In this document: positions 25,448 to 34,842 of the stretch, piece by piece
How the letters are laid out: each line of letters begins with the position of its first letter
How positions within the stretch are numbered: the first letter of the stretch is position 1
Assembly: GCA_026393695.1 (NCBI GenBank)
Contig: JAPKZR010000290.1
Coordinates: 1 to 38,522, forward strand
DNA from: Actinomycetota bacterium
GTDB taxonomy: Bacteria > Actinomycetota > Acidimicrobiia > Acidimicrobiales > Ilumatobacteraceae
Direction: 5' to 3'
Length of the DNA: 38,522 bases
Translations under genes and position numbers: made by a program
The notes under the pieces: generated by a model
What the model was told of the DNA's origin: nothing
Seen by the model: only the letters and a program-made list of their open reading frames with translations
Database searches by the model: none

Positions 25448-27201
25448 TTACTGCACCCGCACGGTGTTCGTGTCTCGACCGCTGCGCAGTAAGGTGCCAG
25501 GGCGCGCATCGAGCATCTCGCCATGCTGCACGCACGGCACGCCATTCACGAGCACATGGCTGATGCCGTTGGCCTCGCCGTAAACACGACCAGCGCCGCC
25601 AGGTAGGTCGAACTTGGTGAACACCTCACCCGGACCAATGCAGGTAGGTCGAACTTGGTGAACACCTCACCCGGACCAATGTTGTGGCGATCGAACACCA
25701 CGATGTCTGCAGCGTTACCCACCGCCAACGTGCCGCGACCCTTCAGGCCGTACAACGCCGCCGGCGCGCCGGTGAGATAGTGCACGGCTTCTTCGAGCGG
25801 AAGTAGCTGGCGATCGACAGTGGTGCGAGCAATCAACGTGGTGGCGTAGCTGAAGCTGTCGATCATGTCGAGGTGTGCCCCGGCGTCGGATGCGCCAACG
25901 ATGGCACGAGGGTCGCGCCACACCTCGACGCGCTTTTCCCAACTGGCGTCGGTCTGGCCGGTATCCATGCTGGCAATGACGGTGTTGAGATCGTCGTCGA
26001 TCGCGATGTCGACCAACGCGTCCCACGGGTCTTTGTTGAGTTCGGTGGCGATGGCCCCGATAGACAGTCCCTCAAAGCGCTTCCAGTTTTCGCTGAAGGT
26101 TTCGAGCAACGTGTACGTACCCCAGTTGGCCAACGAGCGCAGCGGTTCTGGCGCCGATTGCGCAAGGCGATTCATCTCGGCGCGGCCCGCAGGATCGCGC
26201 AGCATCGCCAGCTTGGTCGCAGGATCGAGCGCCATGAGCTTGTCCCAGCCCGGCAAGATGTCGAGCACGAAACCACTGCGCAGGTTCAGGCGCAGACGGA
26301 ACGTGTCGGGCAACGTGAGCGCCAAGACGCGTCCGCCCTTGGCTTCGGCGATGTCTCCGCCCGTGAGCTGATGCTGCACCTGTTCCCAGTTTTGAGCCTG
26401 AACCTGCAACAGGTTCCAGTTGAGCGGACGGTTGGCCGCCACGCTCATTGCGGCCATGAGATCGAACGACTCGTCGGTGAAGCGTCCGACCTGAGGGATG
26501 AACTCAAGCGTGGTGCCGGGGAACTCGCGCACAACACTGCACAGGGCTACGAGCTCTTCGCGGGTGCCATGGCGAGACGGAACTGGCGAGCCAGTGTGGT
26601 CGTTGTGCGAGGTTGACCATGTCGACGAAAAACCCATGCCACCGGCTGCGAGGCCCTCGCGCAACAGGTTCTGCATCTTGATGATCTCTTCGGGAGTGGC
26701 CGCTCGCTCGGTGGCTTGGTCCTTGAGCACGCTGCGGCGAATGGCCGAGTGCCCAACCAAGAAACCAGCATTGGGCATCAAGGTGCCATCGAGGCGGTCG
26801 AGGTATTCGCCGGTGGTGCGCCAGTCCCACGGCACACCTTGCTGCAGCGACTCGAGCGGCATGCCCTCGACTCGGGCCAACATACGCATCAGGTAGTCGC
26901 CGTCTTCGGGGGCAAGCGGCGCAATCGTGAAACCGCAGTTGCCGCCCATCACGGTGGTGACGCCATGCAACGGCGATGGGCTCAGCGTGGTGTCCCAAAA
27001 AGCCTGAGCGTCGTAGTGAGTGTGGATGTCGATGAACCCAGGGGTCACCACCTGATCGGTGGCATCAATACGTTGGTGCGCAGCCTCGGTGACATCGCCG
27101 ATCTCAACGATGATGCCGTCGCGAATTCCGATGTCGGCGGCAACGGCAGCGCGGCCGGTGCCGTCGATGACCTTGCCTCCGGTGATCACTACATCCAACA
27201 T
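25448..27201 (-). pseudogene. D-aminoacylase-like amidohydrolase, frameshifted by a 41-bp tandem duplication
   Basis: The ATG at 27201 follows an AGAGGGG ribosome site. The frame encodes an amidohydrolase 3 protein (N-acyl-D-amino-acid deacylase group): MLDVVITGGKVIDGTG, VTPGFIDIHTHYDAQ with the HxH metal ligands, GGNCGFTIAPL with the Cys of D-aminoacylases, and VGASDAGAHLD with the catalytic Asp. The open frame ends at 25546 after a 31-residue unrelated tail. Removing one copy of the exact 41-bp repeat (25600-25681) restores the frame: FTKFDLP then continues as GGAGRVYGEANGISHVLVNG and 30 more residues to a TAA at 25448-25450, giving exactly 571 codons. The barrel core is intact and only the last beta-sandwich strands are lost, so a 551-aa product may still fold poorly or not at all. 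It is a paralogue of the gene at 1-302. Confidence 0.85.
25600..25681. repeat. Exact 41-bp tandem duplication inside the amidohydrolase gene
   Basis: Copy 1 is 25600-25640 and copy 2 is 25641-25681; they are identical, both starting CAGGTAGGTCG and ending GGACCAATG. Forty-one is not a multiple of three, so the second copy shifts the reading frame of the gene. Identity at all 41 positions means it is very recent, reversible by slippage, or an assembly artefact. Confidence 0.97.
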
Positions 27202-27702: not shown

Positions 27703-27772
27703 TCTGCACGCAGACCAGCACCCTTTCTTCATTTTCTTCATCAACCAATAAGAACTCTTAGAACCCACTTGT

Positions 27773-29062: not shown

Positions 29063-30430
29063 TCAGTCGGCGATCCAGCTGCCGTGAAAGCCAAACGGCA
29101 CTCGCTGCGGTAGTGGCACAATCGCCAGTGGCTCTGCACTCATGTCATGTGCATCGAGCACCACGAACGATGAACTCTGGGTGGCCTTGTCGTAGAGGTA
29201 TGTAATCACGTAGCCATCATCTTCGGCAGTGCCGTTTGCGGAGGGCACAAACACTGGCTCGCCCGACACGGTGGTTGGGCCGAAGTCGTGCACTTCGCTT
29301 GTTCCCTTGCCAAGGTCGTACTTGAGAAACACGCTCGAGCCGTCCATCTCGCTTGAACCTTGGTCACGCGAGCTCAATGCCCAGCCGACCTTGTTCTGCA
29401 ACCCACAGCGACGATCGTCGATGCGCGGAAAAGCGTGCTCGCGGTCGTCGAGTTGCTCTTCGTGCACAGTGCCCGTGTTGAGATCGAAGCGCCAGCGCCA
29501 CAGGTAGCACGGCTCAAACTTGTCGGCGCCGCCCTGCCACATGCTTGCGTGACGACCAGCGTCGAGCCACACCGTGTGACCGTCGGGACCATCGTCCCAT
29601 GCGTTCATGATGTGGAAGATGTAGCACAGGTCGATGTCGAACCAGCGTGGCTGCTCGCCGCGGCGCGCTGCATCGCGGTTCAACAAACCAATGCGAGCTC
29701 CGTAGCCCTCTTCCCAACCGAACGGCATGCCGCCCGTCATTGCGTCTTCGATGTTGAAGGTGACGGGAAGGTCGAGGAAGATCGCGTAGTTGCGACTGAT
29801 CGCAAAGTCGTGGATCATCGTTGGACCCGGCACGTCGATGGCCTGAGTGTGCACCAACTGTCCGGCGGCGTCGGCCACGTGATACGTGACGAACGGCGGC
29901 ATGAATCCGTACCCGAAGAAATGCATCTCGCCGGTCTCGGCGCACGTGTGCGGGTGCGCTGTCATCGGCGTATCGAGACGGCCCTCAAAGTTGTATGGCC
30001 CAAGCGTGTCGAGTTCGTTCGACAACTCGTTGGGCAAGCTGCCCTCTTCGAGCGCCAAGATGCGGTTCGCGTGGCTCACGATGTGCGTGTTGGCCAAACC
30101 AACGGTGAGGTCCATGCTGCCATTTGTCATGTCGAAACGATCGACGCCGGCGAGCGCCTTGGTGCGCACCAGACGGTTGCGATACCACTCGGCCTTGCCG
30201 TCGCGAATGCGGATGCCATGAATCATTCCGTCGCCCGCAAACCAATGCAGCGTGGGGCCGTTCATCGGGTTGGCCCCATTGCGGAAATAGCGACCGTTGA
30301 GATCGGCTGGCAGCTTGCCAATCACGGGCAGATCGAATGCTTCGACCTCATCCATCACCGGGGCATAGTTGCCACGCATGTGCCAAGGGAGTCGGGTATC
30401 GATACCGGGCTGATCGTCGAGCGCTGTCAT
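29063..30430 (-). CDS. Carotenoid cleavage dioxygenase family protein
   Basis: 455 aa from the ATG at 30430. Non-haem iron oxygenase of the RPE65/CCD family, which splits polyene double bonds of carotenoids or stilbenes. The four iron-binding His are visible: MTAHPHT, MIHDFAIS, FHIMNAW and the C-terminal FGFHGSW. LNGRYFRNGANPM is the family N-terminal block. The substrate cannot be told; retinal-forming, apocarotenoid-cleaving and lignostilbene-cleaving members look alike at this level. TAAGAA ends 7 nt before the ATG, so it appears leaderless and separate from the M24 gene 66 nt upstream. Confidence 0.93.
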   Translation of the reverse strand: MTALDDQPGIDTRLPWHMRGNYAPVMDEVEAFDLPVIGKLPADLNGRYFRNGANPMNGPTLHWFAGDGMIHGIRIRDGKAEWYRNRLVRTKALAGVDRFDMTNGSMDLTVGLANTHIVSHANRILALEEGSLPNELSNELDTLGPYNFEGRLDTPMTAHPHTCAETGEMHFFGYGFMPPFVTYHVADAAGQLVHTQAIDVPGPTMIHDFAISRNYAIFLDLPVTFNIEDAMTGGMPFGWEEGYGARIGLLNRDAARRGEQPRWFDIDLCYIFHIMNAWDDGPDGHTVWLDAGRHASMWQGGADKFEPCYLWRWRFDLNTGTVHEEQLDDREHAFPRIDDRRCGLQNKVGWALSSRDQGSSEMDGSSVFLKYDLGKGTSEVHDFGPTTVSGEPVFVPSANGTAEDDGYVITYLYDKATQSSSFVVLDAHDMSAEPLAIVPLPQRVPFGFHGSWIAD

Positions 30431-30437
30431 GGGCGAA

Positions 30438-30443
30438 TTCTTA
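30438..30443 (-). promoter_or_regulatory. Candidate -10 box for the carotenoid oxygenase gene
   Basis: TAAGAA on the minus strand, exactly 7 nt upstream of the ATG at 30430. Confidence 0.5.
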
Positions 30444-30496
30444 CACCTCGAGCAACCGAAAAACGTGCTCAACGGCATCACATTTCGCGCAGCGGA

Positions 30497-33394: not shown

Positions 33395-34842
33395 CAGAGC
33401 TCGGCACCCCAATCGCGGGTCTCGAGCAGTGCCTTCACCTTGACCAAGAAGCCGGCGGCATAGGCGCCGTCGAATGCCCGATGGTCCCAGCTCATCGCGA
33501 GGTTGCCCATCGGATGAATGGCGATGCTCTCGCCACCATCTACCGAGCGCACAACCACGGGCTTACGCACGATTGCATCGGTAGACAAAATCGCCACCTG
33601 AGGCTGGTTGATGATGGCCATCGTGAGCACGCTGCCAGCGGAGCCGTTGTTGCTAATGGTGAACGTGCCGCCAGAGATCTCGTCGGGACCGAGCTTGCGA
33701 CCACGAGCTCGTGTGCCGAGATCATTGATCTCGCGAGCAATCGCGCGCAGGCGCTTGGTCTCGGCGCCACGGATAACCGGCACCAGCAGACCGCTGTAGT
33801 CGAGGTCTACGGCGATGCCGAGATCGACGAAGTTATGCACGATCAAGTTGTCGCCATCGACGGTGGCGTTGAGATGTGGAAACTCGCGCAACGCGTCGAC
33901 AACGGCGCGGGTGATAAAGCTCAGATACGTGATGCCGAAACCTTCGTCGGCTTTCCACGAGTCCTTGATCTTGTTACGTGTGGAATCGACGTTCGAGAAG
34001 TCGACCTCAACAACGCTGAATGCGTGAGGACTGACACCCTTGCTCATCACCATGTGAGCGCCAGTGAGCTTGCGAATCTTGCTGAGCTTCACGACATCGT
34101 CGCGTTCGTCGCTGACCGCCGGGGCCGGTGCTGCGACTGGAGCGGGAGCCACTGGGGCTGGAGCCACCGGAGCGGCAGCGACTGGCGCTGGCGCTGGCGT
34201 AGGAGCCGGAGCGACCGGCGCTGGCGCTGGCGCTGGAGCAGCTACCGGTGCAGGCGCCGCATTGGCTGCCATCGCATCGATGCGATCAAGCACATCTTCG
34301 CGAGTGATTCGTCCGCCAGGACCGGTGCCCACAAGCGACGCCGTATCGATGTTGTGCTCGGCCACGAGACGGCGCACCACTGGCGACAACAAGCGGTTGT
34401 CGTCGACACCGGCGGCCACAGCGGCTGCAGATGCAACTGCTGCAGCAACAGGGCTGACGGGCGCAGCGGCGGGCGCTGGGGCCACCACAGGGGCAACTGG
34501 CGCCACGGGGGCGGGCGCTGGAGGTGGGGGTGGTGGCGCCGGGACCTCAACAACTACGGGTGCAGGAGCAGGTGCTGGCGTGGGCGCCGGGGCTGGGGCA
34601 GCGCCGTCGGCTGCGCCCACCACGGCGATGATTGCTCCGACCGGAACTGTGTCGCCTTCTTGGGCGCGGATCTCAAGCAACACTCCGCTGCTTGGGGCTG
34701 GCACCTCGGTGTCGACCTTGTCGGTAGACACTTCGAACAATGGCTCATCGACTGTGACAGCGTCACCGACCTTTTTGAACCAGCGCGTGATCGTTCCCTC
34801 GGTCACTGTTTCGCCGAGTTGTGGCAACGTGATGTCAGCCAT
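33394..34842 (-). CDS. sucB: E2 dihydrolipoamide acyltransferase (2-oxoglutarate dehydrogenase type)
   Basis: 482 aa. One N-terminal lipoyl domain with the lipoylated Lys42 in STDKVDT, a long Ala/Pro-rich hinge (about 80-130), a peripheral subunit-binding domain (SPVVRRLVAEHNID...GTGPGGRITREDV), a second Ala/Pro hinge (about 200-250), and the catalytic domain ending in MSWDHRAFDGAYAAGF with the HxxxDG active site. It transfers succinyl or another acyl group to CoA in a 2-oxoacid dehydrogenase complex; sucB is the likeliest name, but pyruvate or branched-chain E2 are possible. GGAAGGA 4 nt before the ATG is its ribosome site. It lies 36 nt after lpd and overlaps lipBA by 4 nt. Confidence 0.9.
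   Translation of the reverse strand: MADITLPQLGETVTEGTITRWFKKVGDAVTVDEPLFEVSTDKVDTEVPAPSSGVLLEIRAQEGDTVPVGAIIAVVGAADGAAPAPAPTPAPAPAPVVVEVPAPPPPPPAPAPVAPVAPVVAPAPAAAPVSPVAAAVASAAAVAAGVDDNRLLSPVVRRLVAEHNIDTASLVGTGPGGRITREDVLDRIDAMAANAAPAPVAAPAPAPAPVAPAPTPAPAPVAAAPVAPAPVAPAPVAAPAPAVSDERDDVVKLSKIRKLTGAHMVMSKGVSPHAFSVVEVDFSNVDSTRNKIKDSWKADEGFGITYLSFITRAVVDALREFPHLNATVDGDNLIVHNFVDLGIAVDLDYSGLLVPVIRGAETKRLRAIAREINDLGTRARGRKLGPDEISGGTFTISNNGSAGSVLTMAIINQPQVAILSTDAIVRKPVVVRSVDGGESIAIHPMGNLAMSWDHRAFDGAYAAGFLVKVKALLETRDWGAEL

Follow-up and report, generated by a model that had tools for sequence, protein, structure and literature searches.

A 41-bp tandem doubling that breaks an amidohydrolase gene in an Acidimicrobiia draft genome is probably an assembly artefact

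Introduction

Does an exact tandem doubling late in the coding sequence of a metabolic gene record a mutation in the organism, a reversible switch, or an error made when the genome was assembled? The question is raised by a stretch of 38,522 nt (the window), contig 34 of a draft genome of 2.70 Mb that comprises 346 contigs and is 88.9% complete, in which two abutting copies of a 41-bp unit interrupt a gene on the minus strand. An earlier note on this DNA described the repeat and offered three causes, namely a fresh mutation, an on/off switch operating by slippage, and an assembly error. Here, we describe a comparison of the locus with its counterparts in related genomes and a scan for similar doublings in the same draft genome and its sisters. 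We present evidence that the doubling is probably an assembly artefact, arising from an overlap that was left untrimmed, and that the frameshift it causes in an otherwise ordinary gene for a 570-aa amidohydrolase would then be false.

Results

The doubling displaces the C-terminus of a predicted deacylase

The features of the locus are as follows.

25546 to 27201, minus strand: amidohydrolase frame as assembled, 551 aa, the final 31 residues out of frame (translation; Pfam Amidohydro_3 and Amidohydro_1)
25448 to 25599, minus strand: true C-terminal coding segment, displaced, reading GGAGRVYGEANGISHVLVNG...NTVRVQ and stop, kept in sister genomes
25600 to 25640, no strand assigned: 41-bp unit, copy 1 (100% identity; Tandem Repeats Finder and a second repeat search)
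25641 to 25681, no strand assigned: 41-bp unit, copy 2 (identity run of exactly 41, junction without microhomology)

The two directly adjacent copies of the unit, CAGGTAGGTCGAACTTGGTGAACACCTCACCCGGACCAATG, are the sole match in a script scan of the 38,522-nt window for near-exact repeats with periods of 10 to 400, and simple arithmetic shows that chance alone would not be expected to give an exact tandem repeat of 41 bp in 38.5 kb. Translated from the ATG at 27201 with both copies in place, the frame proceeds to ...KFDLP, continues into 31 foreign residues, ALVRVRCSPSSTYLAALVVFTARPTASAMCS, and ends at 25546 after 551 aa; with one copy it encodes 570 aa and a stop, 571 codons in all, and the stop lies at 25448. 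The description given in the earlier note, of an exact duplication, a broken gene with a foreign tail, and a one-copy frame of exactly 571 codons with a normal C-terminus, is thus borne out by the agreement of both repeat searches, by translation, and by related genomes, which show that a single copy is the normal state.

The window protein matches Amidohydro_3 (2.1e-37 in Pfam), and the closest solved structures in a PDB sequence search are D-aminoacylase, with a match of 1.4e-35, and N-acyl-D-glutamate deacylase. By these matches it resembles the D-aminoacylase/N-acyl-D-amino-acid deacylase family (Amidohydro_3; PDB 1m7j and 3gip), and the gene product is predicted to be an amidohydrolase of the N-acyl-D-amino-acid-deacylase type. 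It differs from that family in that the protein, as assembled, is missing the final 50 residues of the 570-aa form.

Related genomes carry a single copy

The GenBank records of its relatives are of metagenome-assembled genomes, placed under Actinomycetota, Acidimicrobiaceae or Ilumatobacteraceae, and lakes are the source of several. Five genomes of the same genus (G008, G002, G007, G001 and G003) each have one copy of the unit and a complete 570-aa protein, which supplies the comparison with close relatives that the earlier note had proposed. A sixth, G004, has one copy and a protein of 558 aa, its gene being cut at the start of the G004 contig; a further homologue on L008 (open match, 84%) was left out of the evidence. 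The shifted frame was also considered as an alternative, real C-terminus, the case that the earlier note had named as refuting its reading, and was ruled out, as it is found in no homologue.

When reduced to one copy, the window sequence aligns with its two closest relatives at 93.9% and 91.3% DNA identity and with zero gaps at the gene, and the two-copy version requires a single clean gap of 41 bases. The alignment with G008, the closest sister, extends over 28 kb and has eight gaps in total, the 41-bp block included. The remaining gaps are multiples of three, except for a single-base gap at 27709, which by its coordinates falls between the start of the amidohydrolase gene (27201) and a thiolase-like gene (27784); no other frame-breaking gap lies inside a gene in this alignment. 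The single copy in relatives and the gap pattern against G008 together indicate that the 41-bp doubling is private to this assembly and is the sole frame-breaking change nearby, and the lack of further frame-breaking gaps in genes across these 28 kb argues that ordinary gene decay is absent.

Elsewhere in the window, low-complexity repeats at 34132-34570 differ in length from those of G008 by 36, 15, 6 and 6 bases. These differences are all multiples of three, and the region, in contrast to the 41-bp doubling, is a repeat that truly varies in length and stays in frame. The window also contains an RPE65/carotenoid-oxygenase-family gene at 29063-30481 (Pfam 5.6e-119), which lies near genes for an acyl-CoA dehydrogenase, a thiolase-like protein and an M24 peptidase.

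Similar doublings recur in the same draft genome

Sixty-six readable stretches of the draft genome, amounting to 621 kb of its 2.7 Mb with the window included, were scanned for exact, two-copy doublings of at least 25 bp. Seven isolated doublings were found, with units of 32-72 bp; the six outside the window are listed here.

L062:773-864: doubling C11, 46 bp; single-copy in sisters, one-copy version aligns gap-free
L071:2281-2362: doubling C20, 41 bp; intergenic
L091:4829-4932: doubling C41, 52 bp; single-copy in sisters, one-copy version aligns gap-free
L102:2872-3015: doubling C70, 72 bp; single-copy in sisters, one-copy version aligns gap-free
L107:7850-7913: doubling C75, 32 bp; single-copy in sisters, one-copy version aligns gap-free
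L139:2353-2474: doubling C93, 61 bp; single-copy in sisters

Sister genomes have a single copy at five of these six sites (C11, C41, C70, C75 and C93); at C93, G002 shows two matching halves that have one 62-base stretch in common, that is, one copy. The copies in all seven pairs are free of mismatches, from which it follows that every doubling is young compared with the 6% divergence from the nearest sister. Unit length is not a multiple of three in six of the seven, and there is thus no sign of reading-frame constraint. Four of the doublings outside the window break conserved frames, those of a P-loop helicase-like protein (672 codons reduced to 387), a zinc-binding dehydrogenase, an NAD-dependent epimerase and an extradiol-dioxygenase-like protein, where the helicase and dioxygenase labels come from motifs read by eye and have no Pfam match at a strict cut-off. 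Another adds 24 aa to UvrA, directly ahead of its P-loop.

Doubling C20 stands apart. It sits where an EPSP-synthase/MurA-family gene stops and leaves the protein unchanged; G008 has one copy at the site, and G002 carries its own tandem repeat, a diverged one, at that intergenic position. C20 may therefore be a real doubling at a naturally variable site, and because of the diverged repeat in G002 we set it aside as evidence for an artefact. A near-perfect 45-bp palindrome, CATGGGCGCGATTTGGGACAGCAGTTGTCCCAAATCGCGCCCATG, is dispersed in the genus, with occurrences at L071:2243-2287, L053:8222, L065:15396, L076:12708 and L157:8509, and its relatives are numerous in G008.

The sister sample comprised about 1.07 Mb (431 kb of G008, 479 kb of G002 and 160 kb of other sisters) and yielded no isolated exact pair; its two matches, both in G002, are longer arrays whose identity runs extend well past one unit. 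The probability that all seven doublings would fall in the one genome is P ~0.0009, or ~0.002 without C20, a comparison of seven with none that should be read with the possibility in mind that the sister assemblies came from better pipelines. The junctions themselves show no microhomology beyond chance: identity runs exceed the unit by 0-1 base per pair, where 0.7 is expected per event, and the seven pairs together have 3 extra bases against 4.9 expected. Additionally, exact overlaps between contig ends that represent unmerged joins occur within the same assembly, of 141 bp (L063/L069) and 42 bp (L090/L096), in a search that took in all but the small contigs reading as N.

Discussion

Among the three causes first proposed for the doubling, assembly error is the best supported, since private exact doublings recur in the same draft genome and are without counterpart in its sisters. 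The exact copies, the units free of codon constraint, the junction microhomology no greater than chance, and the recurrence in one assembly with absence from the sisters (with the qualification that the C20 site varies in G002 too) are what an artefact would be expected to leave, and the lack of mismatches, of microhomology and of frame constraint, taken with the overlapping contig ends, fits joins in which an overlap was retained. Two assembled pieces overlapping by 41 bp would have been set end to end with the overlap retained twice, a joining step that we infer, and the retained overlap would then have created the false frameshift in the deacylase-type gene.

A related error has been documented for scaffolds, in which joins keep duplicate sequence around inserted Ns although the flanks overlap; such unmerged-flank duplicates are known from IDBA-UD and CLC assemblies, and local assembly errors without read support have been described as well (Chen et al. 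2020, Genome Res 30:315, PMC7111523). The likeness lies in overlapping flanks that were not merged, leaving the overlap duplicated. The difference is that Ns separate the copies in those joins, whereas the window copies abut directly, and this counts against an artefact, as does the fact that the units have no one common length matching a k-mer size. An origin in k-mer length, suggested by the two of seven units that are exactly 41 bp, was dropped on account of the other units, which span 32 to 72 bp. A third point against an artefact is the C20 site, which indicates that real short duplications occur in the genus.

The natural tandem repeat that a sister has at the C20 site lends some credence to a true 41-bp duplication that arose very recently in the sampled population, by slippage during replication or by template switching, whether fixed there or polymorphic, and that truncates the enzyme; exact copies private to one genome are just how such a mutation would look. 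We nevertheless regard it as unlikely. Unrelated genes of the assembly hold another five private doublings that look just as fresh, four of which break a frame, and the sampled sister sequence has none; the junction is without microhomology, and the nearby genes carry no other frame-breaking indel.

The excess of doublings in this genome over the sampled sisters could also reflect an unusual mutational process, generating short tandem duplications genome-wide in the lineage. Under such a process, new tandem duplications of 30-70 bp would be appearing in a burst in a freshwater lineage of Acidimicrobiia, with a subpopulation bearing many frame-broken but revertible genes. We consider both the process and the burst highly improbable: many genes would have to be freshly knocked out at once, and UvrA damaged with them, all by doublings with identical copies and no microhomology, and an assembly cause is simpler. 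A literature search on bacterial short tandem duplications with microhomology gave no match when all terms were combined.

Least probable of all, to the point of being scarcely credible, is a switch that turns the gene on and off, or exchanges its C-terminus, as slippage reversibly takes the repeat from one copy to two; it has no positive support: a 41-bp direct repeat could revert to the 570-aa form by slippage or recombination and, as in the tandem-repeat phase variation of contingency loci, copy number alters the reading frame, but the amidohydrolase site has exactly two copies rather than a multi-copy array of short units, no relative examined shows the repeat there or any trace of one, the target is a metabolic enzyme affected at its extreme 3' end, and the phenomenon is not specific to the locus, as uvrA and several unrelated genes carry like doublings. 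Nor was a conserved repeat of varying copy number found at the locus, where the five complete homologues and G004 have one copy each. Assembly error is therefore the strongest of the causes that the earlier note had put forward; the fresh mutation survives as a lesser candidate, and the switch is very improbable.

The doubling is real in the sequence file and most likely reflects the assembly rather than the organism, and the finding is mainly a caution. At the sampled density of about seven in 621 kb, a draft genome of this kind would hold roughly 30 doublings, most of which would appear as false pseudogenes. Short exact two-copy tandem repeats private to one assembly thus offer a cheap error test for databases of metagenome-assembled genomes.
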